Source: a virus
Virus record (IMG/VR): IMGVR_UViG_3300032322_001562
Location: 1-64,000 of that record
DNA: 64,000 bases
Direction: 5' to 3' (one strand)
The notes under the pieces are model-generated. The model was given only the letters and a program-made list of their open reading frames with translations. It had not been told where the DNA came from and searched no databases. This document shows positions 40,126-62,792 of the stretch, piece by piece. Position 1 is the first letter of the stretch. Each line of letters begins with the position of its first letter. The translations under genes and the position numbers were made by a program.

Positions 40126-40850
40126 CTAATTTAATGGTGCATCAAGATCTGGACCAAATGGATTCACTGACTCTGGATTGAAGTCTGTTGGAGGAATGTA
40201 AGGTTTACTTTCTCCAACTGCTCCTAGCCCGTCATCATCGAACCCGTAGTCTGCTGAAGAGCCTTTTGGCATGTAAGCTCTGCTAGACCTAGATCCAGAC
40301 ATGCCGTACTTGTATATTTGGTTGTACATCAAGTACAGCTGGTTCCTAAGCTTGCTTATCGACTCTGCCTGTTCAGCGGAGGCGTATTTCGAGTCCTCTT
40401 CAAAATAAAAATGAATAACATCAGTCATGTCTGATGCCTCCATTTCTGGCAATCTTAAGTTGTTTGTTAATGCTTTACCATTAACGTATGGCCAGAGGTC
40501 TATTGCCCAGCTAATTAAACCTCTGGCTGCTGATTTGGGCGTCCAGTGTACTCCTCAATCAGCCATGCTACGATTTCTGACAAAGTCTCCATCGTAACAA
40601 TTCTTTCCTTGTCCAATGTCAAAGCGTTGAATCTATCCAAGCTTTCATCGGTCAAAACTCTTTCAAAAAAGTCTGTAACAACGTTAGCTGCGACTACAGG
40701 GTCATCCGACTGGGATCTGCTAACCATGTCAAGAAGAACTTTTCCTTGAATTTCCGAAACGCACTGAAACTCCTCATCGTGGAGCTTGAACTTAATTGCA
40801 GCTTTTTCGGACTTATTTCCAGAACCAAAGTCTTTAAAACGATCAGTCAT
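40126..40850 (-). CDS. Tail assembly chaperone long form by -1 frameshift
   Basis: The upstream chaperone frame (40850 to about 40533) continues after a -1 slip into the frame ending at 40126, giving about 241 residues. The shifted frame begins SAARGLISWAIDLWPYV and is open across the zero-frame stop. Siphoviruses make the G and G-T chaperones from one locus in this way, before the tape measure gene, exactly this position. Without the slip the second frame could only start at TTG 40452 or ATG 40443, which have no clear ribosome site. Confidence 0.85.
40491..40539 (-). promoter_or_regulatory. Programmed -1 frameshift signal of the tail chaperones
   Basis: Slippery heptamer C CCA AAT (40533-40539) is in the correct phase (X XXY YYZ). 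Five bases downstream a perfect 9-bp stem GCCAGAGGT/ACCTCTGGC (40519-40527 with 40491-40499) encloses a 19-base loop and the zero-frame stop. Confidence 0.88.
40515..40850 (-). CDS. Tail assembly chaperone short form (G-like)
   Basis: 111 residues in the zero frame, ending EEYTGRPNQQPEV. Acidic and helical: FKLHDEEFQCVSEIQGKVLLDMVSRSQ, VVTDFFERVLTDESLDRFNAL, METLSEIVAWLIEEYTG. The composition, the length and the EYTGRP ending match short tail chaperones that coat the tape measure during tail assembly. A GGGTAAAAT element lies 45 bases before its ATG. Confidence 0.82.
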   Translation of the reverse strand: MTDRFKDFGSGNKSEKAAIKFKLHDEEFQCVSEIQGKVLLDMVSRSQSDDPVVAANVVTDFFERVLTDESLDRFNALTLDKERIVTMETLSEIVAWLIEEYTGRPNQQPEV

Positions 40851-45465: not shown

Positions 45466-47550
45466 TTAGAGCTCGATAGCAGCTGCGGTTGCGCCACCAG
45501 TGGTGTCGCGTAGAGCAGCAGCAACACCGTTGACCGAGATGGTCGAGGTGATTGCTAGAGACTCGATACCAACCTTGGCAACGTTCTCGAAGGTCTCAAC
45601 GAACATCTTGTAGTCGTTGGTTCCTACGAGGGAGCTGTCGCGGATGATACCTAGGTCGAGAGTTCCACCATCCAGGAATAGGAAGGTGCCCTCTGCGAAC
45701 AAGTACCATACGAAGGTGTCTGGGAACTCTACAAGTGCAGTTGCACCCTGAGAACCAAACACGTTCTGGTCTGGAGTAGCAACCAAGTCAACGTTGATGG
45801 TTGACAGGTAGCCGTTGATCTCGGCCTGTGATACAGACAGAGTTCCATCTCCTGGCATTGACAGAGTCAAGTCAGCTGCCATTGCGTCGTATACCCATGA
45901 AGGAATGAATGCCTTCAGGACGGCGGTTGGAGCTAGACGGTGACGTGAACGGTAAGCAGCAGCTGCACGGCGTAGCTGTACCAGGAAGTCACGACCGAAA
46001 CCGATCAGAGACGAAGTGGTAACAGCGGTTGAGCCAGTTGCAATGTTGGCTAGCAGGTTCTGCTCTGCCTCACGTGCGTGCTGTACGAGAGCTAGCTCGT
46101 TGTGGCGAGCAATCAACTCTGGGTAAGCACGAGTCATGAGGTTACCGAACTGTAGCTGTAGAGTGACAGCGTCAGTTGACACGGTCTGCTCCTGAGCAGC
46201 TGAAACAGTCAGGCTGGTCTTGGTGTTTGAGTATGGAGCTGCATCGGTAGCTGCGGTCCATACACCAACTGCGTTAGCGTAGGTTCCAGCTGCGAAGCTT
46301 GGTGGGGTTACGAAGCGGATACCGCCGCGGTCTGCCTGGAAACGTGGCAGAGCGTCGCGTACCGGACGTACTGTGGTAGAGCCAATGCCGAAAATGTCGT
46401 AGCGAACTTCGACTGGAGCAGCGTGTCCACCAGAAGCGGTAAGAGCTTCCTGGCCTACAACTGCCTCGATCTTTGCGGCGTTTGCCTCTGCGTCAGTACC
46501 GAGGAAACGGTCCTCTGGGTACTGAGTGGTGAAGGAAGCAACGATGTGCTGCTCTCCGTCTCCACCGTTTACACGACGAAGAGAGTGTAGTCTCTTCTCC
46601 ATGGCGCGAGCAACCTCTGCCATGTCTTGAATTGTGCTTCCCGCGGTGTAGCCAGGGATGTCAGCACCAGCGGTGATTGCCACTGGAGCCTCGGTAACCT
46701 GAACTACAGGCTGGCGGTCAGCTGGAGCCTCGAAAGGCTTCTCTTCTGCGGCGCTCACTAGTGCCTGCTCCTTCTGCTCTTCTACGAGAGCGGTTGATGT
46801 TTCAATTGTTTCTTCAGAAGAAAGCTCTGCTGCTGGTTCTACCTCTACGGCTGCTTCTGCAGACTCTTCGGTAGAAAGCTCAGTTGCCTCTTCTGTATTG
46901 GTCGATAGTTCAGAACCGTCTTCCTGATCGGTTGATGCTTCGTTTGCAGACTCCTCTACAACTTCGGCTACTGCCTCAGTTGCAACCTCTACGTCTGCTG
47001 ATAGCTCGGCTTCTGCAACAGGAGTTGCATCTGCACTTACCTCAGCGGCTGGCTCACTAGAAACTTCCTCGGTTGCGGCCTCGTTCTCGGCGGATGCCTG
47101 AATTGACATCTCATCCTCCTTCTTTTCCTCTTCCTTGGACTCTTCCATGGGCTCTTCCATTTCGGCTTCTGGTTCCATCTCCACAGGCATGTCTTCAGCT
47201 GGAGCTTCCTCCGCTGGCATGTCTTCTGCTGGAGACTCTTCCTTCATAGCCTCGTCTTCGGTCATAGCCATTTCTTCTCCCTTGTCGCCATAGCCCTCGC
47301 CCTTGACACGGGCAGCTGCTTCAGCGGCCTTTGCTGCAAGCTCTGCAGCAAGAGCTTCGCGACGAGATAGTTCGCCACGAACAATGTCAAGAGAGTCGGC
47401 TAGCGACGTCATAGCATCAACTGTCTCAGGAGTAGGGTCTTCACCCTCAACCATTTCAAACTGGCTGATAATCTCTGCCTGAAGCTCTGCGACTTGCTCG
47501 TCGCCAAGCTCAGCGATAGTATCAAGCTGAGTTTTGATTTGGTCGTACAC
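45466..47550 (-). CDS. Major capsid protein fused to a long acidic scaffold-like N-terminal region
   Basis: 694 residues. Residues 1-85 are helical (IKTQLDTIAELGDEQVAELQAEII). Residues about 85-285 are extremely acidic and low-complexity (EEAPAEDMPVEMEPEAE, SSEPAAEVSADATPVAEAEL). The HK97-fold capsid follows at about 290-694: AEVARAMEKRLHSLRRVNGGDGEQHIVASF, FGIGSTTVRPVRDALPRFQADRGGIRFVTPP, YPELIARHNELALVQHAREAEQNLL, AFIPSWVYDAMAADL and a DGGTLDLGIIRD loop. The N-terminal half probably acts as a built-in scaffold (delta-domain) removed by the protease encoded upstream. Confidence 0.88.
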   Translation of the reverse strand: MYDQIKTQLDTIAELGDEQVAELQAEIISQFEMVEGEDPTPETVDAMTSLADSLDIVRGELSRREALAAELAAKAAEAAARVKGEGYGDKGEEMAMTEDEAMKEESPAEDMPAEEAPAEDMPVEMEPEAEMEEPMEESKEEEKKEDEMSIQASAENEAATEEVSSEPAAEVSADATPVAEAELSADVEVATEAVAEVVEESANEASTDQEDGSELSTNTEEATELSTEESAEAAVEVEPAAELSSEETIETSTALVEEQKEQALVSAAEEKPFEAPADRQPVVQVTEAPVAITAGADIPGYTAGSTIQDMAEVARAMEKRLHSLRRVNGGDGEQHIVASFTTQYPEDRFLGTDAEANAAKIEAVVGQEALTASGGHAAPVEVRYDIFGIGSTTVRPVRDALPRFQADRGGIRFVTPPSFAAGTYANAVGVWTAATDAAPYSNTKTSLTVSAAQEQTVSTDAVTLQLQFGNLMTRAYPELIARHNELALVQHAREAEQNLLANIATGSTAVTTSSLIGFGRDFLVQLRRAAAAYRSRHRLAPTAVLKAFIPSWVYDAMAADLTLSMPGDGTLSVSQAEINGYLSTINVDLVATPDQNVFGSQGATALVEFPDTFVWYLFAEGTFLFLDGGTLDLGIIRDSSLVGTNDYKMFVETFENVAKVGIESLAITSTISVNGVAAALRDTTGGATAAAIEL

Positions 47551-47668: not shown

Positions 47669-50600
47669 TTAGGTAAGTAGTCGAAGTAGCTTACTCATCT
47701 CAGACTGAACCTCTCCCTGAGAGAAGAGGTCAGCTCCAGACATATAAGACTTTAGCTTTTGGGTAGCTATGTCTGCGTCTTCCTTACCAATCTTTGATTC
47801 TACCCTGTCAATCATGCCCTCTATTAAGTCCTTAAGACCTGCAGGCAGATCGCTATACCTAACTTTTTGGGCTTCTTTACCAAAAGGTAGAGGTAGATTT
47901 GCAATAGTTTTTCCTAACTCAGCTGCAGTTAGACGAACGTTCTCTAGGGCTTCCGGATTGAGCGCCTGAGCGTCAAGTCGATCAATCATTCCTAGAAGCT
48001 CAGAACTTGCAGCTGCAGAAGCAGCATAGTCTCCTGCAAAGTCTAGATTTTCTGCTTCTTCCACTCTCTTAAGTGCTCTAGAGAGACCAGCAACACCAAG
48101 GTCTTGCTTTAGTCGAGCTAAAACTTTGCGGTACTTGCCTTTAGCATCGCGAGGCTGGTTAACGCCAGAGATATATTTAACTCTGCCTTCCTCATCGCGA
48201 ATAGGTGCAGACTTAGCTTTTTCTACTTCTTCGGCGGCTTTGATCTCTTCCTCAGTTTGCTTATCAGCCTCTTCTTTGGCTTCTTTAAGCTTCTTAAGCT
48301 CTGTCTCGGAGATCTCCTCGGCTTTTGGGCCGGCAGCCACCACCACCTCTCGAACATAGGCAGCGGCAGTTTTAGAAGTCCATTCTTCTGGAATCAGGTC
48401 TTCTCTACCTAGAGCCTTTGCTCTCTTAACGATATGCTTCTTAGCAAGCTCGATGTCTTTTGCGCGACCGTGAGCCTTGATTGCACGCTTTAGGTCTTCC
48501 TCATTCTCAATTGGGAATGATCCATCTGGAAGAGCGAGTCCTTCTTCTGCATACTTTTCGCGAGTCTCTTCTGAATAGTCTCTGAACTCACCAGTTGCTG
48601 CTGCAGTAATTGCTGCACGCATAGCAGCTACCTTCTCTGCAGCTTCCATTGAGTCAGCGTGTAGCCAGTGGCTAGGAATCAAATCGGCTTGGCGTAGCTT
48701 GCGAGCACGCTTGATGATGTGCTTTCGAACAGCCTTGCGCTCAGAAGCTTTCGAACGACCATAAGCCTGAATTGCATTCTTTAGGTCGTCGACGTTGCGA
48801 ATTGGGTATGAACCGTCTGGCATTGCTTTGCCTTCTTCAGCAAGAGCCATGCGCTCTTCCTCAGAAATCTTGGCAAGCTCTGCAACAGCAGCTGCAGTTA
48901 GGGCTTTTTCACGCATTTCAGCAGCACTAGCGGTAATAGCCTCTAGGTTTGCCTCACGCATTTTCTTTTTTGCTTCCCTGACACGATCTTTTAGGTTAGG
49001 TGCGCTAGCTGCGAGCTGACCAAGCATGTCAGCTTGTGCAACTAGGTTTCCAACTGCACGACTCTTCATAATTGCAAGCTCGGAAGCACCAGCGGCAACA
49101 AGAGCCATAATCTTGCCGGAAGCAACCATTGCACGAGCAATTGGGAATCCTGGAACATTTACCTGGCAAACTGCAACAAGCTCCAAAGAGCCGTTGATTG
49201 GACGCCAGTCTCCAGAAGGAGCGGAAGCACGAAGTGCACGAACCTGCAGTTCATCTACGTCTGGACGAAGGGATCCAGCGCACCAAATGCCGTACTCATC
49301 CTCTCCCATGTGAACGTCTGCTACTGCAGAGGCGGTGTCGTCATAGTGCTTAGCAGCTGCGGCAGCATCTACGTTTAGTGGGGCGTGTCCGCCAGCAAGG
49401 GTTAGCTGACCTACAGGAATGTCCATTCCCTCGGCAGTGTGAATTACGCCTGTGTGGAAGTAAGCGTACTTGCTTCTTGAGCGTGGTGGCTTAGTCGAGC
49501 GTGGTAGACCGATGTGGCTGACGTGCCATGCTGCAATGTGGCCGTAGATACGACCATCCTTGTCCACAGTCAGTGGAGTTGGCTTTGTCAGCTTCGGGTT
49601 TTCAAACCATGAAGCTGGAGGAGTAACTGGAACATCTGATTCCAGGTATCCTGAAGCAATGATTGGCTCGACGTCAGCGAAGGTCTCTAGAGACTCTTCA
49701 TAAACGCCGTCTTCTGGGGTCACAATATCCTCCTGATCCCCTGATTCTTCGATGAGAATAGAGCACTCTTGGAATGCTGGCTTAGCTACAATTGTAGCAG
49801 CCATGATTCGGGCCTTATTGATAGTAAGTTTGTCTTTGCCGTATTCTTGACCATCATCAGCGGTTTCTTTTGATGGTTTCTTGTCTTCTTTTGCCTGGAA
49901 CTGATCGAGGTCAACAGAAACTCCACGCAGGAACCCGTGACGGACTAGACGCTCTGCTTCACGTCCATATGGGCCGCTGTCAAACACTCCGTAAGCATTG
50001 CCCATTCCGCCATCTACACGCTCGATGTAGTCAATTCGACCAACCACAACTGATCCATCGTGTCCCTGGCCAGTTTTAATCTGCCAGAGCAATGGGACTG
50101 GCAGTTCTCTCATCGAGATAGCACCTTTGTCGAATTTACGACCGTCCCCGGACTCTACTTCTTCCGGAATAAGCATTGGAATAAAGAATCTCGCTCCGTG
50201 AGCAGGCTTAGGAGCAGCTGCCACCAGACCAATTTTTTCTCTGGCATCGGCTGCTCTAGCTGCTAGTTCTGCACGTTGGATAATTGCAGTGTCAAACTCT
50301 TGCTCACTTGCAAAAAGGCTGGCTGAAGCCTGACGACCACGCTTTTTCCCGACATTGAACTTGCTTCCGGTATATACGCCAGTAACTTCTTTGTGACGCA
50401 GTTGGCAGTAGCCTTTAGCGCGAGGCCCCATGTACTTGGAAAGCTGGCGGACACAGCGTGTCCAGTCCCCAGGAGTACCCCAACGAATTTTGAGGGCACC
50501 CTTGCCACGAGTCCAATAGCGGCGAAGTGCTTCGGCGTTTCCACGGTTGCGATCTAGACCACCAGCAGCGATTAGTGCCTCGAATTCTTCATCCAAACAC

Positions 50601-52855
50601 TTAGCAAGTTCATCCATAGCCTTGCAAATTACATCCTCTGGCTCCCATGAGTCGTCATACAGGTCGTCTGGCTCTGCCATAATCTCAACGATTGGAATAA
50701 GCATGTCACTTTCAGTCACTTCCGTAGCCTGAGTGATATTTTCACCTGGAAGTTCTCCCATAAGGAACTCGTCTGTTGAGTTTTCACGACCTGGATTAAA
50801 TTTGCTGCCAGTGTAGATGCCGGTAGCGTCCTTGTGTCGGAGCTGGCAGTAGCCCTTTGCACGAGGGCCCATGTATTTGGTCAGGTATCTTACGCAACGC
50901 TTCCAGTCACCTGGAGTTCCCCAACGGATTTTTGCAGCGCCTTTACCCATAGTCCAATAACGGCGTAGGGTCTCGGCATTACCTCGATTGCGATCAATAC
51001 CTCCAGCTGCTAGAAGTGGCTCTACAACTGTTTCCCAGAAAATGTGGAAATTGTAGGCTGAAGAAGTCATACCTTGGTCTGCTTGAACAAGAACGTCGTT
51101 TAGAACTTCTTTATCATCTAGCTCTACTACTGGTGGTGGAGTTGAAGACTTAAGATCCATAAGAATCTGGTCATTTCTCTGCCAAGTTCCATCTTTTCTT
51201 TCATAAAGAACTGGAGTAGTAGTTTCTTTTGTCTCTGGAACCAGAGCAACAATATCCATAACGGCAGTCTTGTCATCCGGAGAGACTAGAGCCAAATATT
51301 TTGCAGGAATATCAGACGTTTCTGGAGTTTGGGTCTTACCAGTCGGCTCGCCAGCAGAAGTTAGCGGCTTAAACTTCTTTCTTTGGCTAATTACCCAAGA
51401 GTCCCAGTTGTACATCATTGACCTGAGCTCGTCCCTGGTCATAGGGGGAAGAGTTCCGGGTAGGTGAGCCTTTGGCCTGTTTGAAGGAGTTCTAGGTTCT
51501 CCCAAAATTCCAGACATGTCTAGTGGAGCACCCATTGGGCGGGTTTGGACTTTTAGTCCCTCTAGCTCTTCGTCTTGACCCTTAACGGTGTTAGATGGGA
51601 CAGTGACTACCTCGCCATTTTCAAGCAAGACGTCTACGGTACCGTCGTCAGTATTTATGGCAGTGATTTCTCCCTTGCCACGAGCAAAATCGTCAGCAAT
51701 AACAACCTTAGTTCCAACTTTAGCAAATCTTCCCAGCGCATCTTTTGGCTGTTTTGCTGCTCTAGCGGCTTTTTCAGCTGGAGTATCGATGTTGTCGTTA
51801 GGGTCTATAGCTCCAGTAGGCTTTGGCTCTCCAGCGGCTGTCAAAACTCGGTCAATCATGGCAAAGTCTTCTTCTGCAAGACCCTCGGCCATAAGTGCAG
51901 TCTCTTCTGGGTCAATCTCTTCTAGAAGAACTGGTTGGAATGGACGCTCTTGGAAGAAAGCAGAAATAATAACGGCTGAAGATGGATCGATTAGGACGTG
52001 CTCGACTTCTACGTTGTCTTCTGAGTCATCTAGGGCTTGATCGTAGTAATAAACGTCGCCATCAACATGTCCTAAGTCGTCCCAGCCGAAGTCGTCCCAA
52101 ATAGAAACTGTTCCATCAATGTCGATTTTATATAGGCGGTCAATTCCAGAACCGTCCATGCGAACACGAGCCATAAACTCTGGACCAACATTAGCGTCCA
52201 GCTCATGTGCAACCTTGAATGGGTTTACATCAGAGTCGTAGTTTCCAAAACCATACGTGTCTAGGTGATCTTCATACCCTGGGAGCATGTATCCACCAGC
52301 AGTTCGTGCTTTTCGGTTTTCTCTTTCAACAATTGCGCGAGACCATCTCCATGCGGCGTCGCCACCCCAAAGGGCCCAGGCGATGCGACCATTCGATGGA
52401 AACTTGTCTTCGCCTGGAGCCCAGCCTTTGCCCTTCTTGTCTACTTCGTGACGAGGGAAATATTTAGCAATATGTCTAACCTTGCGAATTCCTATTTGAC
52501 CGCCACGAGCAAGAGTGCGAGCAGTGTTAAGACCTACTGGAGTTCCACCACGCTTATACTTTTTTCTCCACTCAAGAGCTTTTTTAGCTTCTGCAACAAC
52601 TCCTTCTGGAATTGTGTACATTCTGTTTCCAGAAGCGGCGATTGGAGAAACTTCTATAAGCGCGGCGTTGGCAAGCTCGATAACGGAACTAGAAAAAGCT
52701 TGCTTAGTTGGCTTATCTGGTAGTGCAGCTAGTTTCTGTGCAATTTCTACCTGGGAAAAGTCAGCAACCAGGTTAGTGTCAAAATAAACTGCAACGTATC
52801 TTCCCTTTTTCTCAAAAAAGGCTAAAGATTCGTCAGCGCCAACAAATTTAAGCAA
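47669..52855 (-). CDS. 1728-residue head polyprotein with HK97-type prohead protease
   Basis: TTG start with GAGGA upstream. Domains: an N-terminal helical module (about 85-200, WRKKYKRGGTPVGLNTARTLARGG...FPSNGRIAWALWGG); a small barrel (about 365-425); two copies of a 70-residue Arg/Lys-rich module (about 615-685 and 761-833, AAGG-DRNRGNAE-LRRYW...IRWGTPGDW); and the protease (about 900-1060) with His about 931 in GQGHDGSVVVGRI and Ser about 978 in LRGVSVDLDQF. Then follows a capsid-protease companion (AAWHVSHIGLPRST...QVNVPGFPIARA), and two DUF6582-like repeats (about 1345 and 1430, LPDGSFPI-N--DL--AI-A-GR). The protease should cut capsid and scaffold, and possibly this polyprotein. Confidence 0.85.
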   Translation of the reverse strand: MLKFVGADESLAFFEKKGRYVAVYFDTNLVADFSQVEIAQKLAALPDKPTKQAFSSSVIELANAALIEVSPIAASGNRMYTIPEGVVAEAKKALEWRKKYKRGGTPVGLNTARTLARGGQIGIRKVRHIAKYFPRHEVDKKGKGWAPGEDKFPSNGRIAWALWGGDAAWRWSRAIVERENRKARTAGGYMLPGYEDHLDTYGFGNYDSDVNPFKVAHELDANVGPEFMARVRMDGSGIDRLYKIDIDGTVSIWDDFGWDDLGHVDGDVYYYDQALDDSEDNVEVEHVLIDPSSAVIISAFFQERPFQPVLLEEIDPEETALMAEGLAEEDFAMIDRVLTAAGEPKPTGAIDPNDNIDTPAEKAARAAKQPKDALGRFAKVGTKVVIADDFARGKGEITAINTDDGTVDVLLENGEVVTVPSNTVKGQDEELEGLKVQTRPMGAPLDMSGILGEPRTPSNRPKAHLPGTLPPMTRDELRSMMYNWDSWVISQRKKFKPLTSAGEPTGKTQTPETSDIPAKYLALVSPDDKTAVMDIVALVPETKETTTPVLYERKDGTWQRNDQILMDLKSSTPPPVVELDDKEVLNDVLVQADQGMTSSAYNFHIFWETVVEPLLAAGGIDRNRGNAETLRRYWTMGKGAAKIRWGTPGDWKRCVRYLTKYMGPRAKGYCQLRHKDATGIYTGSKFNPGRENSTDEFLMGELPGENITQATEVTESDMLIPIVEIMAEPDDLYDDSWEPEDVICKAMDELAKCLDEEFEALIAAGGLDRNRGNAEALRRYWTRGKGALKIRWGTPGDWTRCVRQLSKYMGPRAKGYCQLRHKEVTGVYTGSKFNVGKKRGRQASASLFASEQEFDTAIIQRAELAARAADAREKIGLVAAAPKPAHGARFFIPMLIPEEVESGDGRKFDKGAISMRELPVPLLWQIKTGQGHDGSVVVGRIDYIERVDGGMGNAYGVFDSGPYGREAERLVRHGFLRGVSVDLDQFQAKEDKKPSKETADDGQEYGKDKLTINKARIMAATIVAKPAFQECSILIEESGDQEDIVTPEDGVYEESLETFADVEPIIASGYLESDVPVTPPASWFENPKLTKPTPLTVDKDGRIYGHIAAWHVSHIGLPRSTKPPRSRSKYAYFHTGVIHTAEGMDIPVGQLTLAGGHAPLNVDAAAAAKHYDDTASAVADVHMGEDEYGIWCAGSLRPDVDELQVRALRASAPSGDWRPINGSLELVAVCQVNVPGFPIARAMVASGKIMALVAAGASELAIMKSRAVGNLVAQADMLGQLAASAPNLKDRVREAKKKMREANLEAITASAAEMREKALTAAAVAELAKISEEERMALAEEGKAMPDGSYPIRNVDDLKNAIQAYGRSKASERKAVRKHIIKRARKLRQADLIPSHWLHADSMEAAEKVAAMRAAITAAATGEFRDYSEETREKYAEEGLALPDGSFPIENEEDLKRAIKAHGRAKDIELAKKHIVKRAKALGREDLIPEEWTSKTAAAYVREVVVAAGPKAEEISETELKKLKEAKEEADKQTEEEIKAAEEVEKAKSAPIRDEEGRVKYISGVNQPRDAKGKYRKVLARLKQDLGVAGLSRALKRVEEAENLDFAGDYAASAAASSELLGMIDRLDAQALNPEALENVRLTAAELGKTIANLPLPFGKEAQKVRYSDLPAGLKDLIEGMIDRVESKIGKEDADIATQKLKSYMSGADLFSQGEVQSEMSKLLRLLT

Positions 52856-53794: not shown

Positions 53795-55909
53795 CTACTG
53801 TCCTTGAACTCCTGGTGGAACCATCATATCAACCATACTTCTATCTAGAACAATTACGTAACTTTCAGAAGGGTTTCTAACTAACTCTAGACCTTGATAT
53901 CCTAGCATACCTGCAAGAATAGACAAGTTATATTCGCTAGAGGCTACAAGTCCCAGCTTTGCTTTTAGAAGCTTAATTTCTTTTTCAAGTTCCAGACCCT
54001 CTAGGTCAGGGTCAATTTCATTAAGAACTATCTCTTTAATTAAAGTCTCGTTTAGCTCTCTATTGAACTTGTCTAGATTAAAACTTCCGTTGTTTTGGGC
54101 GGAGTAAATGTTTCCTTCAGTGCTCCAGCTATTTTCAAAGTGAACAAAAACTTTTGCATCTGGCTTTACTCTCATTTTGGCGGTAGTTCCATAGCCCCTA
54201 GCAGTGGCCTGACTGGTAGATGCATACTGACCGTCGCCATAAATTCCATATCCATACCATGGCATATCAGCTGTTCTAAATTGATTGTGCTTATTCCAAG
54301 CTTCGGCATCAGACCTATCTGAGATTCCTCGGTAGATAGTGTATTTATCATTTGCAATACTGGCTACTGTAGTTGGCTTTTTGTCTGCAAACCCAAAAAT
54401 TCTTGCTAGCTTATGAGCACGTGCGGCCCCATATTTTCCAGTTTTGTCATATTCGACACTTTCTGGGCCATTATATTCTGGAACAACGCCGTTTTGATCG
54501 TCAGCAAAAATACCATCCAAGAATTTAAAGAAGGTGTCTTTATATTGAGAGTAATTGTCTCGCCACTTTTTATTAATCTGAGCCCTAGTAAGTCCTTTAG
54601 AGGATAATAGCTCCATAAACTCTGGAGAAGCATTTCCTGTGATTAAATATTTGGCATATTGTTCTGCAAAGCTTTCAGAGACACTCTCGTCCCCGTAAAG
54701 GCTGGTTCCACTCTGAGAAACATTGAACTTCTTGAAGTCTTCCTCCAGACTCTTTCTTCCAGAAGACTTTCCGTCTCCCCAAAGCTTATACATCTGAAGG
54801 TGTCCGCTTTCGTGGACAATTAGGTGTTTGTAGGCAAGGTCCTTTGTGGTTATGTCAGTGGAGAAGAAGTCGGAAGGTCTGTCAGGCCTATTCAGCATGG
54901 CCTCTATCTTCTCGGGGAACAGGTAGATTCCATTACCACCTAGGAATGTAAATGCTACTTCGTCTCCACCAAGTTCAGACGTTACTGCTTTTGGAGCTGC
55001 ATTTGAAGCTTCAGAAAGAACGTTTAAGGAGATCCTGTCTTTGTTAAATCTAAATGCTCTTGCTGCGGCAATACCTGCCTTAATCTGGGCAGCGTCGACT
55101 TCATTTACGATGGGGGTTAGAACGCCATCGGTGCGCTTTCCGTCCATGTATATGTTGATTTCAGCATTATCAGTGTTAGACGAAACTCTGATAAATGATT
55201 TGGTTGGATCGCTGCTTCTTTCTCGAAGGATGGAAGCAACTTTTCTACTAGCTCTGTAGGTAGCTTCTTTATCGTGAGCGCCCTGAACTAAAAACTCGTC
55301 CTTAAATTCCTTGAAAAGCCTATCGCTCAGAGCAACGGCTCCTTCAACATCCCAATCAGAGCCAAGAGCTCTAACAATCGCATCAATTCTTGGCATTTTA
55401 GTTCTATACTCTGTGGCAGCATCCGCTCTAAGCTCGTTTGCTGTTTTAGGTCTAGACCCTGTCCGCTTCTTGTTGTGGAAGAAGCCTCTTACAAGCGCAA
55501 GGCCTCTAGTGTCGAGGAATCTGTCAGCTTTTACTAAATTATCTAGGACCGCTGGATTGTACTCTTCGGTAGAAGACAGGCTGTCATAATCCAGCTGAAG
55601 CAAATCTCTAAGAGCTTTTGCATATGCCGTCTGGTCGCCGCTGCCGCGTGCGTCTCTGACCGCCGATATTTTAGCTTCGAACTCGTCTAGGTCAGCGTTT
55701 GCAGAGATGTTATTGAAAAGCTCTGTTTCAATAGCTTTTAGGTCGTCCCAGCTGGGATCGATAGGAGTTGTACGAGGACGGCCAGGACCGCGCTTTAAAT
55801 CTCTTAGCTTTGAAAGATCGAAGTTTTTTCCTTCAAGACTTTTAGCTACTCGAGGCTTTGGGGCTGAATCCGGTCCCTCGTTGGAAGGGCCAGAGACAGC
55901 CCTATCTAT
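53795..55909 (-). CDS. Zincin plus ADP-ribosyltransferase-like extension, reached by -1 frameshift
   Basis: 704 residues when read from the slip site (55909). The first conventional start is TTG 55603, but the 102 codons before it are open and encode coherent sequence (IDRAVSGPSNEG, PGRPRTTPIDPSWDDLKAIE) with no start codon. HLIVHESGHLQMYKLWG (fusion residue about 1262) is a zinc metalloprotease HExxH, with a downstream E in DESVSESFAEQ. YTIYRGISDRS (about 1425), GQYASTSQATARGYG (about 1465) and a C-terminal GYQGLELV...YVIVLDRS follow the R/STS/closing-strand plan of ADP-ribosyltransferases in phage MuF-type proteins. The final catalytic Glu is not certain. Probably virion-borne and delivered with DNA. 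Confidence 0.7.
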   Translation of the reverse strand: MDRAVSGPSNEGPDSAPKPRVAKSLEGKNFDLSKLRDLKRGPGRPRTTPIDPSWDDLKAIETELFNNISANADLDEFEAKISAVRDARGSGDQTAYAKALRDLLQLDYDSLSSTEEYNPAVLDNLVKADRFLDTRGLALVRGFFHNKKRTGSRPKTANELRADAATEYRTKMPRIDAIVRALGSDWDVEGAVALSDRLFKEFKDEFLVQGAHDKEATYRASRKVASILRERSSDPTKSFIRVSSNTDNAEINIYMDGKRTDGVLTPIVNEVDAAQIKAGIAAARAFRFNKDRISLNVLSEASNAAPKAVTSELGGDEVAFTFLGGNGIYLFPEKIEAMLNRPDRPSDFFSTDITTKDLAYKHLIVHESGHLQMYKLWGDGKSSGRKSLEEDFKKFNVSQSGTSLYGDESVSESFAEQYAKYLITGNASPEFMELLSSKGLTRAQINKKWRDNYSQYKDTFFKFLDGIFADDQNGVVPEYNGPESVEYDKTGKYGAARAHKLARIFGFADKKPTTVASIANDKYTIYRGISDRSDAEAWNKHNQFRTADMPWYGYGIYGDGQYASTSQATARGYGTTAKMRVKPDAKVFVHFENSWSTEGNIYSAQNNGSFNLDKFNRELNETLIKEIVLNEIDPDLEGLELEKEIKLLKAKLGLVASSEYNLSILAGMLGYQGLELVRNPSESYVIVLDRSMVDMMVPPGVQGQ

Positions 55910-55915
55910 TTTGGG
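55886..55915 (-). promoter_or_regulatory. Candidate programmed -1 frameshift site CCCAAAA-UAG
   Basis: Zero-frame codons GTC CCA AAA TAG contain the in-phase slippery heptamer C CCA AAA (55909-55915) abutting the stop codon. Five bases on, AGGGC/GCCCT arms (55899-55903 with 55886-55890), extendable by a G-U pair, form a short hairpin. The -1 frame is open back to 55962 and forward to 53795. Confidence 0.7.
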
Positions 55916-58614
55916 ACGCGGTTTGCCCCTAGCGGAACTAGCTCTAGCTGTTCGTCGCCTTGGTCATCTAGCCAAACAACGGCCCAGGCTTCGGTTCCAT
56001 CTTCTGGATCAGTAACAATCTGAGCCTCTACAAAAGTTCCAAGTCTGTCACCGTCTTCGTCTGGCCAAACATCCCCGGCCTCGAAGTCTTGAATGTTTCC
56101 TGGAGCTTCTACATCGGCCTCGGCCTCTTCTGCCTGTTCTTGTCCAGATACTCCCTGAGTTCCAATGTATGGAGCAGCCGCGTCTTGGTCTGCGGTACTT
56201 CCTACTTGGTCATCTTCTAGGTCTTGGTTTTCATCGTCCTGCCTTGCTTCGTCTCCGAAGTCGAAGGAGAATCCGCGCAAGTCACGAAGCTCTTGTCCTT
56301 CTACATTTCTCTTGTAGTCGGTTAGGTCTGAATCCTTGTCGTGTAGGTTTAGATCGTTGTCTAGTTCGTCGCCAAGAATATCCATCTTGGTTGAGCGCAA
56401 TAGACCGATTTGGTTGTCGCCAAACCTGACATAAACAGCGTCGTCGTAGCCGTCTCTGTTTGGCTCGCGTAGTCCGATGACAGTTCCAATAGACCATTCG
56501 CCAACATTGTTCCAGTAGCGAATCTTGTCGCCCTTTTGAACAATTGTCTTTCCATCCTTGGAAGCAAATGGCCTGCGAGCAATGTCTCTTAAATCGAAGC
56601 TTTCAGAAAGGATCTTCTTCTCTAGATTGTTTGCAAGTGGAGCAACTTTTCTACCTAGAGGGGTTCCATTAAACCTGGACTTGATTCCATCCCTAAGAGT
56701 GTTGATAAGAAGGTTTCTCGACTCTTCGGTATCTGGTAGACGTCCAAGAAGCTGAACCATTCTGGCTTCAAAGGTAGTAAGGTCGTCCTGTTCGATTGCT
56801 TCCCAGGCTGAACCGACAAAGCTTTGTAGCTTGGTACCGCGTGCCTGTCCAGACTTGTTGTACTTTTCTGCACGACCTTCAAGATACTTCTGCACCACTT
56901 CCTCTGGAGTAAGCAGCTTAAATGAAGTTTTGTTTAAGTCATCTAGAGTTACTTCCGAGCCAGCAGACTTCTTGCCGCGGAAATATCTAATTCTGTCAGC
57001 AAGAGTCTTGTCGGAACCGAAATAGTTTAGGGTGTCTCTAGTAGGGGGCTGCTTTCCTGGCATAGTTTTACCAAGGATGTGGTCGCGGAATACGTAAACA
57101 CCATTCTTGTCTCCATAGATTCCAGCGAAGGAGTCTTTGTAGTCGAAGTGGTAGAAAGTCTGGACGTTGCCATTTGAATCGGTGAACTTGTAGCGCTCAA
57201 TGTATTGGTTTCCGTGGGTCTTAGCGACTGCTACCTCGTATTTATAGGACTTACCATCGTTATCGGTAAAGTCACCACGCTCAAGGATAATGTTCCCAGC
57301 CTGGTCAACTTTTGCCTGAGGATTGTTTTCCAAAAGTGCGTTGTAAATCGCGTTGGGATCTTCAATCTTTTTACGACCAGCGCCAAATACAGGACGTCCG
57401 GTATCTGGATCAATAAGTTGCTGAATTGGAACATTCTGCATCTGCTCGAGAGGAGTTGTATTTGGCGCGATATCTGAGCCGTCGTCTTCTCTTCCCTTTG
57501 GAATTGTTGGAAGCTCTTTTGGCTTAGAAGCCGGAGTCTTTGGCTTAGCTGCTGGCTTAGACACAGGCTTGGGAGCTGCTGGCGCAGCTGTGTCTACGTC
57601 ATCTGTAGCTGGCGCTTGTGCTGGTGCTGGAGCAGGAGCTAAAGTAACTACTGGCTTCTTCTTAAACTTGCTTTTGTCGGGGGAAACTAGAACTTCAAGA
57701 CCCTCGTCGGGGTTAACATCAAAAGTTTTTCTTACGCCATTTTCATTCTCAAGATCTACTTCAAGAACTTGCCCCTGAGATCCTGGCTTTTGTCTAATTC
57801 CTCTAACAATGGCTTCTGTTGATTTTAACTTTAGAACATCACCATCTGCTAGCTGAATAGCAGTTTTCTTTTTGGTGGCTGCAGAGGGGGCCTTTGCAGC
57901 GTCTACCAATCTCTCTACGTCTGGTGCATCTCCTCCGTAAGCAATGTCTGCAATAACGTCCTCTACAGCTGAATCAACTGGGTCTTGCGGAGCCAGCTGA
58001 TCACGTGAGCTGGCATCAAAATCGTCTGGATTAATTCCAGATTCTCTTAGAAGCTCTTTTGCTTCTTCTCTGTCTAGAGATTCAAAACCACCGGGAAGTT
58101 CTGCAATAGGAGAATTCTTTCTACCATCCTCTTCGGCTGCTCGCTCTTCTGGGGTGAGCTCTCCTCTAATCAGACGCTCGTCATTAGCGGTGATGTCGGT
58201 TCTAGTCTTTTCAATATCTTCAATTGTTGGAATGTCTTGGTCAGTAAGAGTTCTTGTATTTCCAAAAATATCTGTTGATTCTAGAGAGATTCCTTTTTCT
58301 TCCAAAAAGCTTTCTGGAAGCTGCGCCTTTACAGTGGAGTCGAGTAGGTGAGAGTCAATTTCATAAACTCCATCAAACATTCCCCTTTTGTTTCTAACTA
58401 CAACTCTTGCCTTACCTGGGACACCGGTTGGGCCTACATAGTTACCAGTCAGTCCGACTCGGCGGTTTCCTTTACCACGAAGGATAGCTAAAACGGTGGC
58501 GCCCATCTCGATCCAACGGCCGCCTCGGTCTCGGGGCTGAATTCTCCAGAAACCCTTGTTTGCACCATCGTTGAGACCGATTGCAGCGGTAATTACCGTT
58601 TGCTGATTTTCCAT
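55906..58614 (-). CDS. Large head-associated protein (zero-frame product, 902 residues)
   Basis: Modular: an N-terminal strand-rich domain (about 15-80, KGFWRIQPRDRGGRWIEMGATVLAILRGKGNRRVG). An acidic helical stretch follows, with a first small barrel (about 250-310, IQLADGDVLKLKSTEAIVRGIRQKPG). Then comes a Pro/Ala/Lys linker (about 320-370, PAPAPAPAQAPA), an alpha/beta domain (about 385-640, YIERYKFTDSNGNVQTFYHFDYKD), two further SH3-like barrels (about 690-745, KGDKIRYWNNVGEWSIGTVIGLRE; about 845-900, EAWAVVWLDDQGDEQLELV), and acidic spacers. No family is named. It lies between head genes and has a GGGTAAAAT element 36 bases before its ATG. Part of the product should carry the frameshifted zincin/ART extension. 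Confidence 0.7.
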   Translation of the reverse strand: MENQQTVITAAIGLNDGANKGFWRIQPRDRGGRWIEMGATVLAILRGKGNRRVGLTGNYVGPTGVPGKARVVVRNKRGMFDGVYEIDSHLLDSTVKAQLPESFLEEKGISLESTDIFGNTRTLTDQDIPTIEDIEKTRTDITANDERLIRGELTPEERAAEEDGRKNSPIAELPGGFESLDREEAKELLRESGINPDDFDASSRDQLAPQDPVDSAVEDVIADIAYGGDAPDVERLVDAAKAPSAATKKKTAIQLADGDVLKLKSTEAIVRGIRQKPGSQGQVLEVDLENENGVRKTFDVNPDEGLEVLVSPDKSKFKKKPVVTLAPAPAPAQAPATDDVDTAAPAAPKPVSKPAAKPKTPASKPKELPTIPKGREDDGSDIAPNTTPLEQMQNVPIQQLIDPDTGRPVFGAGRKKIEDPNAIYNALLENNPQAKVDQAGNIILERGDFTDNDGKSYKYEVAVAKTHGNQYIERYKFTDSNGNVQTFYHFDYKDSFAGIYGDKNGVYVFRDHILGKTMPGKQPPTRDTLNYFGSDKTLADRIRYFRGKKSAGSEVTLDDLNKTSFKLLTPEEVVQKYLEGRAEKYNKSGQARGTKLQSFVGSAWEAIEQDDLTTFEARMVQLLGRLPDTEESRNLLINTLRDGIKSRFNGTPLGRKVAPLANNLEKKILSESFDLRDIARRPFASKDGKTIVQKGDKIRYWNNVGEWSIGTVIGLREPNRDGYDDAVYVRFGDNQIGLLRSTKMDILGDELDNDLNLHDKDSDLTDYKRNVEGQELRDLRGFSFDFGDEARQDDENQDLEDDQVGSTADQDAAAPYIGTQGVSGQEQAEEAEADVEAPGNIQDFEAGDVWPDEDGDRLGTFVEAQIVTDPEDGTEAWAVVWLDDQGDEQLELVPLGANRVPK

Positions 58615-59175: not shown

Positions 59176-60590
59176 TACTCGTCCTCTTTCTTAGGAAGTA
59201 AATCTGCGTCAGGGCTATCATACAAGTTCATGGCTAGCTCAGAAGCTCTTTCAAATGGATCCATTCCCATCTCTAGAGCCCTATTCCAAGATGCTCTGAT
59301 GCTAGGAATAATTTCATAGCTCAGGTCGGAATATTCGGCTAGAGAGAAAATGGCGTGCTCATCAGAAACGTATTCTTCCCTAGGCAAAATTCTTACAGTA
59401 GACGCTTCCTTTATGGCTGAGTCAATCATGTAGCCAGCGGCGGCTAGGGACGAAGCGTTTCGCTTGCTTGATTTAGGGTGGCTTGCTGGAAGCAGGTCAT
59501 TGTCTGTGGTGTACTTAGAGTTCTTTGGACGACCAGTTCGTAGCAAGTGTAGATAAGCATTTACTCTTGCCATAGCCCATGAGTTGCGGTTCTGGTCTGG
59601 ACGGTGGGAAGTAGAGAACGCTCCAGCTCCACGGCGGTAAACAGCCTTAAGAGTTCTAAGAGAGGTCTTACGACCGTCTTTGGCCTTTTCGTTATGCTTT
59701 TTAACTTTCTCGGAAAGAGACTTTTCTACTTTCTTAGAGAAAGAGATTCCTTTACCAGTTGCAGCAGAGCCCTTCTTGTTTTTCTTCGAGCCAAAGATGC
59801 GATCCTTTTTAGGGGCTGGCTTTGAGCCTGCGGTAGCAGTCACCGACTCTTCGGACTCTTCCGTAACAGGTCCACCTGCAGCCCAAGCGTTGCAGGTACG
59901 CTTAGAAGCGCACTTGAAGTCGAGGGCATTGCAGTAGCCAAGCTCTCCCGCTTCGATGGAGCCTTCAGCTTCCTGGTTGCCTAAGCCAATACCTTCTTCA
60001 AGGCACTCAAGCATCTTAGGAGTACGAACAAAGAAAATGCAATTGCCGCAGCGGGCAGACTTAGCTTCGCGCACAGTTGTGTTCCAACGCTCTGCCTTGT
60101 CTTGCCAAAAAACATCGTTAGGAAGTGCTGGATTTAGTGGACCGTAACCAACATTGTCGATGGCATTCTGTCGATTTTCTAAGTTAAGTTGGATGTCCTG
60201 AGTTGCGGGAGGGCACTTGCCACCGTAGCCACCAACGTCGGCCGTAACAGCGCCGTCTGGAAGGATTGCAAAGCGGCAGAGGCCGCCCTCCTCAGTCTCG
60301 GCGTGAATAATCTTGCAGCCGTTAGGAGCTTCCCAGAAAACGCAGTTGCCGCACTTAACACCGATTGCTGCATTCTCTGCATTCTTTTCTGCAGAGTCGT
60401 AGCCAGCCCAAACGCCAGTATTGTCTGCGTTGAACTTACCATACTTTTCAACTACTTCGATAAGAGCTTCTGCAAGCTCGCGCTCTTCGTCAATTAGAAT
60501 GGCAGCGCTCACTGGCTCTTCTACTTTGTCGTAGTCTAGAATTTCTGCAGGTGCACTGGCACCTCCGGATGCGTTAAGTTGCTCAGACAT
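59175..60590 (-). CDS. Cys-cluster head-associated protein
   Basis: 471 residues. Two Cys clusters: VKCGNCVFWEAPNGCKII...GLCRFAILPDG (about 78-110) and ARCGNCIFFVRTP...GYCNALDFKCASKRTCNAW (about 178-235). CxxC...C...C spacing in each suggests metal binding or an iron-sulfur cluster similar to small high-potential iron-sulfur proteins. A basic module (about 280-345, SLSEKVKKHNEKAKDGRKTSLRTLKAVYRRGAGAFS...WAMARVNAYLHLL) resembles the Arg/Lys-rich modules in the 1728-residue polyprotein. Lies between the Dps-like and hypothetical genes. Structural role inferred. Confidence 0.55.
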   Translation of the reverse strand: MSEQLNASGGASAPAEILDYDKVEEPVSAAILIDEERELAEALIEVVEKYGKFNADNTGVWAGYDSAEKNAENAAIGVKCGNCVFWEAPNGCKIIHAETEEGGLCRFAILPDGAVTADVGGYGGKCPPATQDIQLNLENRQNAIDNVGYGPLNPALPNDVFWQDKAERWNTTVREAKSARCGNCIFFVRTPKMLECLEEGIGLGNQEAEGSIEAGELGYCNALDFKCASKRTCNAWAAGGPVTEESEESVTATAGSKPAPKKDRIFGSKKNKKGSAATGKGISFSKKVEKSLSEKVKKHNEKAKDGRKTSLRTLKAVYRRGAGAFSTSHRPDQNRNSWAMARVNAYLHLLRTGRPKNSKYTTDNDLLPASHPKSSKRNASSLAAAGYMIDSAIKEASTVRILPREEYVSDEHAIFSLAEYSDLSYEIIPSIRASWNRALEMGMDPFERASELAMNLYDSPDADLLPKKEDE

Positions 60591-61045
60591 TAGCGGATAC
60601 CGAGAAATGCCTTAATCTGCCAGTTCCACTTCTTGTGGGTGTCAATGCGACCAGCTAGAAAGTCCATGAGACCCTGCTCGTTGCACTTCTCTGCCTCAGT
60701 AAATGCATCGTAGTAGCAGTCAATGAGAGCCTGGTTGACATTTAGAACCGAGTTTAGAAGCTCTGGAACATTTGCTCCGTCGTAGCGTGGCTCCTTAATA
60801 GTTGACATCTCGACGAAGTCAGTTAGCAAATATGGAGCTGCGTATCCAACCTTGAGAATGTTTTCTGCTAGTGGGTCGATAGCCCCGTCAACGTCTTCGT
60901 ATAGTTTTCCGAAAAAGTCGTGCATCTCTGCGAAGTCGCCACCTAGTACGTTCCAGTGATATCCCTGGTAGACGAATTTGGCAGTTACTACATCAGAAAG
61001 CAGCTTTGCTAGCTTAGCTGCTAGCTCTGGATTTGGGCCATGCAT
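60590..61045 (-). CDS. Dps-like ferritin-fold protein
   Basis: 151 residues, the normal length for Dps. FVYQGYHWNVLGGDFAEMHDFFGKLYEDVDGAIDPLAENI (about 24-63) has the His-Trp-Asn, Asp/His and Asp...Ala-Glu arrangement of the inter-subunit ferroxidase site, and the four-helix periodicity continues to the C-terminus. In cells Dps stores iron and shields DNA from oxidants. Here it lies between portal and head genes, two bases after the portal stop, so it may be packaged or protect the phage genome. One of the few enzymes in the head cluster. Confidence 0.85.
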   Translation of the reverse strand: MHGPNPELAAKLAKLLSDVVTAKFVYQGYHWNVLGGDFAEMHDFFGKLYEDVDGAIDPLAENILKVGYAAPYLLTDFVEMSTIKEPRYDGANVPELLNSVLNVNQALIDCYYDAFTEAEKCNEQGLMDFLAGRIDTHKKWNWQIKAFLGIR

Positions 61046-61046
61046 G

Positions 61047-62792
61047 TTATACCTCTGGTTCGGCTAGTGGTGGAGCTTGGGTTGGTATTGCTTCTCCCTC
61101 GGGCGAGGCGGCTGGCATTCCAGTTGCTTCCTGCAAAATTTGATCAATCTCTGGTGAAATTGGCGCACCGCTTTGTGCCATGTTCTGCTCGCGAACCTCT
61201 CCCATAATGTCTGGCGCAACAGCCCTGAGCAGAGATTCGGTGAGTTCTGGAGTAACCATTCCCTTTTGCAGAATAAAGCGAAGTGCAAATTCTTGTGGGT
61301 CTGGTGCGTCTGCATCCGAGAATCCATGAGCACGTCTCCAAGCGTTATATGAAACCGCCATCTTGTCGAATCCAGAGTCAGCGTCCGCTGCTCGGTCGTT
61401 GCGGGTGGCAACAAGACTTGGGTCGTACCAGATGCAAAGTTTCTTTACTTCATCTTCTGGATAGCCATTAGCAACTAGATATGGACGCAAGTACATAACA
61501 GTGAGCGCGTCAACAATCAAAAGCATCAGAGGCTCGATGTGTGCCTTGTAGAGGGCTTCATCGATTTGCATGGCGTTAGAGTATTTAACGTTGGCAAGTC
61601 CTGTTACAACATCCTTTGGAACGTCTAGGCCTTGCATGATTCTCTCGAGAACGCGGTCTGCACGCTGAGCAAGAGCTGGGTCGAAGGAACGCTCGAACTT
61701 GAACTGCTTGATACGGTCACCGAGTTCTGCAGGACCACGAATGATAAGCGGCACGACAGCTGACGCTGAATCTTCATCCTTAATCGGAGTGGTCATCGCA
61801 TCGATTAGTTGGTCTTCGAACTCGTCAGCCGCTTCCTCTGGGTTGTACTGCTCGTTGTAGTTACCCTCTTCATCGTACGGATAGTCAGGATCGGGAGACG
61901 CAGCGACTGAAAGACCGTCTGGAAGATAAAGGGCACCAGCGTTGAGGCGAGAGCGTGCAGTTGCACGGAATGTTCTGTTGAGGAGAAGCAGTTCAGCGCA
62001 AAGGTCAAGTAGACCTCGTAGCGAGCTGTCTGCTTCCTGGCTGTAGCGTGGGTGTGCTCTCCAAATACGACCAACGTAGGCAGTATTTGGAAGACGAACT
62101 ACGTCCTTGTTTCCAGTAGACATGCTAGAAGCAATGGAAGTTCCACCGGAAATATCACGACGCGGGTTGATGATGTAGTTACCCTTGGCGTCTACCTGCA
62201 ACTCGTCAACGGAACGGATGTCCCATGACTCTGGAAGCCCGGAACCAAGGCGCTCTGGAATCTGAACTAGGTAGCACTCTCCAGTAACCTGCAGGTTGAG
62301 AGCGGCGTCCTTTAGAAGACCTGGCTGACCGCCGTAAGCCGAGCTAAGACGGTCAAGCGCACGCTGTGCAGCTGCAGCAAGGCGTGGATCGATAGCCTCT
62401 ACCGAGTCGATAGGAGCTGGAGCCTCTGCAGGGTTAGATACTGCAGCTGCATAGAGGCGAATACGAGATACAACAGACGCAACTAAGTTAAAAGCGTACT
62501 TAACTTCACCGATTGCGTCGTAGTATTCCCATGCTTCAGTCTGCCAAGCAGTCGAGGCTGCATTTCGACGAGCTTTGAAGTACTCCGCTTCACTTCTGTC
62601 GTCTAGTCTGACCTGAGCTGCTGCTGCAGTTAGTGGGCGAGGGGTGTTAAATGCTTGAGGCTCGGCATAAACAATGCCAAAAGAGTCAATCGAGACTCCT
62701 GGAGCCACGCGAGTAGCATTCTTAGGAGCAGAAGCACGCATGTTGGTGCTTTTTTGCTCATTTTTTGGCGTTTCTCGCTTAAAAATACCCAA
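61047..62792 (-). CDS. Portal protein
   Basis: 581 residues from TTG 62792 (GGGAG upstream). SEAEYFKARRNAASTAWQTEAWEYYDAIGEVKYAFNLVASVVSRIRLYAAAV (about 67-118) is the portal wing opening of actinophages. VVRLPNTAYVGRIWRAHPRYSQEADSSLRGLLDLCAELLLLNRTFRATARSRLNAGALYLPDGL, FKFERSFDPALAQRADRVLERIMQGLDVPKDVVTGLANVKYSNAMQIDE are the stem and clip. The C-terminus is disordered (Pro/Glu). Twelve copies form the DNA channel to which terminase docks. Confidence 0.9.
   Translation of the reverse strand: MGIFKRETPKNEQKSTNMRASAPKNATRVAPGVSIDSFGIVYAEPQAFNTPRPLTAAAAQVRLDDRSEAEYFKARRNAASTAWQTEAWEYYDAIGEVKYAFNLVASVVSRIRLYAAAVSNPAEAPAPIDSVEAIDPRLAAAAQRALDRLSSAYGGQPGLLKDAALNLQVTGECYLVQIPERLGSGLPESWDIRSVDELQVDAKGNYIINPRRDISGGTSIASSMSTGNKDVVRLPNTAYVGRIWRAHPRYSQEADSSLRGLLDLCAELLLLNRTFRATARSRLNAGALYLPDGLSVAASPDPDYPYDEEGNYNEQYNPEEAADEFEDQLIDAMTTPIKDEDSASAVVPLIIRGPAELGDRIKQFKFERSFDPALAQRADRVLERIMQGLDVPKDVVTGLANVKYSNAMQIDEALYKAHIEPLMLLIVDALTVMYLRPYLVANGYPEDEVKKLCIWYDPSLVATRNDRAADADSGFDKMAVSYNAWRRAHGFSDADAPDPQEFALRFILQKGMVTPELTESLLRAVAPDIMGEVREQNMAQSGAPISPEIDQILQEATGMPAASPEGEAIPTQAPPLAEPEV

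Follow-up and report, generated by a model that had tools for sequence, protein, structure and literature searches.

Does this viral locus use programmed −1 frameshifting to append an enzymatic protein to a protein of its head module, and what might the resulting fusion do? The question comes from a sequence-only reading of the window, i.e., the whole 64,000-nucleotide stretch analyzed here (positions 1 to 64,000 of IMG/VR virus record IMGVR_UViG_3300032322_001562), in which two long reading frames meet at a candidate slip site. The elements of this junction are:

55906 to 58614, minus strand: ORF1, 902 aa, the N-terminal part of the predicted fusion and a virion-module protein with homologs in >30 viral contigs
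55909 to 55915, minus strand: slippery heptamer C_CCA_AAA, in phase, found as CCCAAAA or AAAAAAA in 18/18 contigs
55906 to 55908, minus strand: zero-frame stop TAG, abutting the heptamer
53795 to 55909, minus strand: ORF2, 704 aa in the −1 frame, with predicted access via frameshifting
55861 to 55902, minus strand: RNA hairpin with an interrupted stem, outer stem GGGCUG/CAGCCC, after a 6-nt spacer from the heptamer

On the minus strand, the 3′ end of ORF1 reads ...CGC GTC CCA AAA TAG, and the heptamer lies in phase and adjoins the stop as first described (55915–55909 and 55908–55906, respectively). We found the −1 frame open from about 55963, one base away from the 55962 given originally, down to its stop at 53795–53797. 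Counted from 55909 it encodes 704 aa, and the predicted ORF1+ORF2 fusion recomputes to the expected length (902 + 704 = 1606 aa). The earliest ATG, GTG or TTG past the slip site is TTG 55603, and our recount agrees that the 102 ORF2 codons preceding it include no such start. These start-less codons had been judged to read as coherent protein, a judgment supported by a comparison of the window with its nearest relative, L002, where their dN/dS ratio was 0.028 in the −1 frame, compared with 4.2 and 6.7 for the two remaining frames. Another pair of relatives (L021/L028) yielded a dN/dS of 0.056 over the first 60 ORF2 codons.

A stretch under protein selection could also belong to a gene made separately, through re-initiation or coupling at a start close to the ORF1 stop. 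Coupling is common among overlapping genes of phage operons, and ATA or CTG are possible as rare starts. However, the distance from the stop to the first ATG, GTG or TTG varies between 47 and 371 nt, without a conserved position (e.g., a TTG at 305 nt in the window vs a TTG at 110 nt in L002), no clear Shine-Dalgarno sequence was seen in the upstream sequences inspected, and separate initiation leaves both the heptamer and the in-frame fusions described below unexplained, as well as the selection on the 102 start-less codons. Related phages with a start codon and a ribosome site for the second gene would have refuted the frameshift; neither is conserved in the relatives. With no conserved start and the start-less stretch under selection, we rejected separate initiation as the main route and consider it very unlikely.

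Alternatively, the two frames could be a single ORF broken by an assembly or sequencing error, i.e., by one A missing at AAAA. An extra A would indeed join the frames, and relatives with in-frame fused genes exist. Yet 17 other contigs, different in sequence, show the same break at the same residue, with hairpins kept and the stop zero to one codon later. One of them, L002 (85% ORF2 protein identity to the window), has an identical break: the two are identical over a 39-nt stretch that includes the slip site and the first part of the hairpin, and both flanks vary, mostly at synonymous positions. Since two different sequences would not share a chance missing base, the break is not an error. These independent relatives exclude the missing or extra base that would have undone the original proposal, and we rejected this artefact, which retains almost no probability.

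We gathered relatives through ORF1-alignment searches (>30 different) and read the junction wherever ORF1 and its end were complete and ORF1 ended short of the enzymatic part, the most distant relatives (L078–L083) being excepted. The cassette was present in 18 contigs, all uncultured: the window, L002, L011, L012, L015, L018, L021, L023, L024, L028, L037, L050, L053, L056, L059, L070, L071, and L077. ORF1 ends with C_CCA_AAA in 14 of these and with A_AAA_AAA in the other 4, and the stop follows 0 or 1 codon past the heptamer in all 18. Beyond the heptamer, the −1 frame stays open for at least ~920 nt, in two cases up to the contig end, and the +1 frame is closed within 52 nt. Because ORF1 identity to the window falls from 79% to about 25% across these carriers, the cassette is old. 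A search of related phages for the same heptamer and a split or fused gene, suggested at the outset as a check, hence came back positive on both counts, with 18 heptamer-bearing contigs and 11 fused genes.

The heptamer is also specific to the junction. None of the 150 other ORFs of ≥120 codons in these loci carries a canonical heptamer at its 3′ end, and neither CCCAAAA nor AAAAAAA occurs in phase elsewhere in the 31,551 codons of ORF1 and ORF2 from the 18 contigs. Correspondingly, the C_CCA_AAA spelling is used for 0/138 other Pro-Lys pairs and A_AAA_AAA for 0/167 other Lys-Lys pairs, compared to 18/18 at the junction. The absence of in-phase heptamers everywhere except at the junction suggests that such sites are actively avoided in ORF1 and ORF2. 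The sequences behind these heptamer statistics, and behind the hairpin statistics below, share common ancestry, and their independence is thus overstated.

The RNA downstream of the heptamer had been said to form a short hairpin. A hairpin is present, and it is longer and stronger than claimed: in the window, the 66 nt from the heptamer fold into a single interrupted hairpin (−27.5 kcal/mol, z = −3.0) with a stem running from 55902 to 55861. The minimum-energy prediction gives this long hairpin, and an H-type pseudoknot pairing loop GUCUC with GGGAC is a conceivable alternative. Across the 18 contigs, the 60 nt past the slip site had a mean energy of −22.2 kcal/mol vs −9.4 past 140 other stops (Mann-Whitney p = 3e-10) and a mean shuffle z of −2.3; in two (L012 and L053), they were not more stable than their own shuffles. 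The spacer is ~5–8 nt in most of the contigs, the 6 nt of the window falling within the 5–9 nt expected of a −1 frameshift site, and some minimum-energy folds include a few weak pairs that start earlier than the stem. Hairpins of the relatives have diverged in sequence and kept their position: five relatives retain the outer stem around a rebuilt inner stem, and a comparison of L024 with L077 shows one stem pair changed from U-A to C-G and another from U-G to U-A.

These two features, the heptamer and the hairpin, also bear on whether the fusion might be made by transcriptional slippage at the A run instead of ribosomal frameshifting. RNA polymerase slippage is possible in the four contigs with seven consecutive A. 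The remaining 14, including the window, have only four (CCCAAAA), too few for efficient slippage, and a hairpin at a short spacer fits ribosomal pausing, such that we see only a slim chance for this explanation.

Evolution has also joined the two coding regions directly. In L009, L010, and L019, one long ORF runs from ORF1 into the zincin part in frame, joined at the same residue as the slip (RGPK), with CCT AAG in place of the slip codons CCA AAA. Eight further distinct relatives have a single ORF with an HExxH motif near its C-terminus and lack the RGPK join. On a portal tree, parsimony infers five interchanges between the frameshift and fused states, with at least three supported on well-supported branches alone; gene exchange could inflate this count.

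Overall, programmed −1 frameshifting at the end of ORF1 is very well supported by comparative evidence, in the absence of any measured frameshifting or proteomics. The initial proposal of a programmed shift fusing both products is supported by recurrence in 18 contigs, purifying selection in the start-less region, conserved hairpins past the slip site, and relatives fused in frame at the residue of the slip. At the level of sequence, a conserved slip cassette links two coding regions that evolution has also fused in frame, and in this family of uncultured actinobacterial viruses ribosomes apparently shift by −1 where ORF1 ends.

We then considered what the shift would append. Two regions of ORF2 carry recognizable motifs:

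54800 to 54814, minus strand: zincin HExxH motif HESGH, ORF2 codons 366–370, with a second conserved Glu in ESFAE ~45 residues on
53798 to 54367, minus strand: C-terminal region with ADP-ribosyltransferase (ART)-like motifs (YRG at 54334–54326, STS at 54220–54212, conserved E at 53887–53885), at motif level only

The proposed HExxH metalloprotease is the firmer of the two. The motif occurs in 17 of the 18 −1 ORFs, the exception (L012) running off its contig, and in all 11 in-frame fused genes. In an alignment of 12 ORF2 relatives, H366, E367, and H370 are invariant together with E412/E416, and HExxH, a YG, and an ExxAE further on show little or no variation, which is the zincin pattern. The zincin of the window ORF2 has no Pfam match; that of L023 exceeds the Pfam cut-off for Peptidase_Mx1 (26.6 vs 25.6 bits), and serralysin and related proteases in the PDB give weak profile matches. 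The zincin assignment hence stands on the HExxH motif, the downstream Glu, and one relative above cut-off.

For the second suggested activity, ADP-ribosyltransferase, the motifs are there in the window (YRG at codons 526–528 and STS at codons 564–566 of the −1 product), but the assignment itself remains unproven. YRG and the late E are conserved in the nearest relative, L002, where STS reads SNN, and the region has no match in Pfam, NCBIfam, or PDB. A search with this region alone recovered only one close relative from IMG/VR and nothing by sequence from the PDB. An AlphaFold2 model of the whole ORF2 from the 12-sequence alignment had a mean pLDDT of 47 and no usable fold match, with the ART region poorly modelled. 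We thus call the window C-terminus ART-like (R-S-E type) at motif level only.

Other members of the family carry different domains. A DnaQ-like exonuclease (RNase_T) is found in the −1 ORFs of L012, L071, and L077, together with the zincin motif in the latter two; L050 has a PARP-like stretch below cut-off; the single-ORF relatives L052 and L067 combine a UvrD helicase with HExxH; and we read the tails of L015 and L018 as GNAT-like in the absence of a Pfam match. The −1 extensions range from 386 to 1605 residues across contigs. The largest (L077, 11960–16774, 1605 codons) includes two HExxH motifs, HELGH and HEFWH, with RNase_T between them. ORF2 of the window and that of L023 had no match among GenBank phages.

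The identity of ORF1 was approached through its domains and its genomic slot:

58105 to 58557, minus strand: ORF1 N-terminal domain with a QPRDxxGRWIEMG motif (AlphaFold2 pLDDT 79 over a 170-aa model)
61047 to 62792: portal, flanking ORF1
47669 to 52855, minus strand: prohead-protease polyprotein, 1728 aa, with a PF04586 stretch below cut-off
45466 to 47550: capsid, beyond the prohead-protease polyprotein

ORF1 consists of an SH3/Tudor-like N-terminal domain, a Pro/Ala-rich linker, and a conserved C-terminal domain ending at the slip site. The N-terminal domain yielded a good model, predicted to be an SH3/Tudor-like barrel at best and nothing more specific. The same domain opens giant single-ORF proteins in the Microbacterium phages Big4, Pumpernickel, Cece, A3Wally, and Zooman. 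These proteins occupy the same slot as ORF1, i.e., between the portal and the prohead protease and capsid, where GenBank relatives carry a single giant ORF. In Arthrobacter phage Mimi, the protein in this slot is 2709 aa long and has an HEFGH near its end. Since GenBank phage matches to ORF1 cover the N-terminal domain only, the frameshift was not found in any cultured phage, and no ORF1 relatives were detected in GTDB genomes. ORF1 had been called a head protein, a role that is less firm than first stated, as it is inferred from the position of the gene between portal and prohead protease, and Pfam does not identify a MuF domain. We tried and rejected ORF1 as a MuF minor head protein, given that it has neither a Phage_Mu_F domain (Pfam) nor a PHROG match. 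We infer instead that ORF1 is a virion-associated docking part.

Several additional observations were made in this head cluster. The (Q)PRDxxGRW-like motif that opens ORF1 (58105–58557) and the Microbacterium phage giant proteins resembles KQPKDALGRF and NQPRDAKGKY stretches within the prohead-protease polyprotein, and is possibly a docking or packaging tag. A module (AAGGxDRNRGNAExLRRYWTxGKGAxKIRWGTPGDW...KGYCQLRHK) occurs twice in the prohead-protease polyprotein of the window and once in that of L002 (1578 aa), which implies that it was duplicated or lost in phase. The portal gene is directly followed by a gene for a Dps/ferritin-like protein (60590–61045, minus strand; PF00210, E 6e-17), unusual for a head cluster and also found in relatives L002, L006, and L007. 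Finally, the corresponding slot of the metagenome-assembled Actinomycetia phage DSL-LC01 (L029, 18360–28229) is occupied by a 3289-aa protein, in which a weak match to the ORF1 N-terminal domain lies around residue 186.

The slot between portal and prohead protease suggests, by position and by analogy, that the ORF1/ORF2 product is a virion-packaged polyvalent protein. Specifically, the majority of ribosomes would stop at TAG 55908 and release the 902-aa protein, while a minority, paused at the hairpin 6 nt downstream, would slip −1 on C_CCA_AAA and read 704 more codons, yielding the 1606-aa fusion with its zincin and ART-like C-terminus. Their common N-terminal part would probably dock both forms into the procapsid and, by this inferred shared docking, the frameshift rate would set the small number of enzyme-bearing copies per virion. 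The enzymes would then probably be virion cargo, released perhaps by the zincin, and may act in the new host as a polyvalent protein following a Gag-Pol-like logic. We hold with good confidence that this is a programmed −1 frameshift cassette whose enzyme-bearing minority fusion is probably virion cargo, the frameshift being very well supported by sequence comparison and packaging, injection, and stoichiometry being inferred.

The main functional rival to injected cargo accepts the frameshift and takes the fusion to be an assembly or maturation factor, with the zincin as a metalloprotease dosed for the processing of head proteins. The zincin is the only domain that nearly all members share, the gene lies within the head cluster, and the same locus codes for the prohead-protease polyprotein with its sub-threshold PF04586 stretch. 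The additional domains, however, differ in kind, from exonuclease (L012, L071, and L077) to PARP-like (L050) to UvrD in the fused L052 and L067, and because of this variation swappable cargo fits better than a fixed assembly role. We regard an assembly factor as a serious possibility that is nonetheless unlikely, and retain the cargo reading.

A −1 frameshift in a late phage gene is typical of lambda gpG/gpGT-type tail assembly chaperones, upstream of the tape measure gene. The site described here differs in its location in the head cluster, between portal and prohead protease, and in its enzymatic extension. ORF1/ORF2 as a chaperone pair was rejected, as they are not adjacent to the tape measure gene. 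A separate tail-assembly-chaperone-like pair does lie before the tape measure gene of the window (40126–40850, minus strand): a 111-aa ORF ends GTT TAA at 40515, and its −1 frame runs into a 108-aa ORF (TTG 40452). This pair is probably the first of the two frameshifts counted in the sequence-only reading.

Phage coat genes provide further precedents with −1 or +1 frameshifts, i.e., T3/T7 gene 10, Lactobacillus phage A2, and Listeria phages A118, A500, and PSA (Atkins et al. 2016, PMC5009743). As in the present system, a virion gene yields a main product plus a less abundant one with a C-terminal extension, through a shift near the stop; they differ in adding an Ig-like or other structural domain to the coat protein, whereas here a peptidase, nuclease, or ART-like part is added to a non-coat protein. 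Retroviral Gag-Pol frameshifting, discussed in the same review (PMC5009743), likewise links a structural part to enzymes including a protease through an X_XXY_YYZ site and a downstream RNA structure, and brings in a low-copy enzyme by a shared N-terminal part (inferred for the phage). There is no homology between the two: here we deal with a dsDNA phage and a zincin instead of an aspartic protease, and packaging is inferred.

With regard to cargo, phage polyvalent proteins combine several domains (zincin, ART, GNAT, or helicase), are encoded alongside virion genes, and are believed to be packaged into the virion and injected (Iyer et al. 2017, PMC5512222). The family described here is similar in having several enzymatic domains per polypeptide among virion genes (L071, L077, L052, and L067) and unlike in that the window domains have no curated family match, only the zincin being firm and the ART at motif level. 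That paper (PMC5512222) never mentions frameshifting, and its domains are constitutively on one polypeptide. MuF-VIP2/ART genes of Microbacterium phages (Jacobs-Sera et al. 2020, PMC7302621) also place an ART toxin domain on a head-module protein; they do so through a MuF domain, absent here, and an in-frame fusion.

The sequence-only reading had held that this is not a described arrangement. In the openly searchable literature, subscription papers being outside our reach, we found no description of an enzyme appended to a phage head-module protein by frameshifting, nor of this gene family; however, one sentence of the PRFect paper (PMC10885494) places VIP2-ART/MuF-like gene pairs among unconfirmed frameshift predictions, without sites or tests, which tempers that claim.

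Taken together, we lean, by a narrow preference, towards a Gag-Pol-like system in tailed phages, in which a head-docking slip cassette would keep a low enzyme dose per virion, the enzymes would be exchangeable (zincin with ART-like, exonuclease, or GNAT-like parts), and lineages would have switched repeatedly between frameshift and fusion. In phage virion genes, frameshifting was known to add structural extensions and to operate in tail chaperones; here it would determine how much enzyme cargo is made, and phages would have reached the Gag-Pol solution of retroviruses independently. Gene callers split such cargo proteins, and in these genomes the second half would appear as a gene of its own with a shortened start or be overlooked. 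The arrangement makes it testable how many copies of an injected effector are packaged per phage, and whether that number is under selection.
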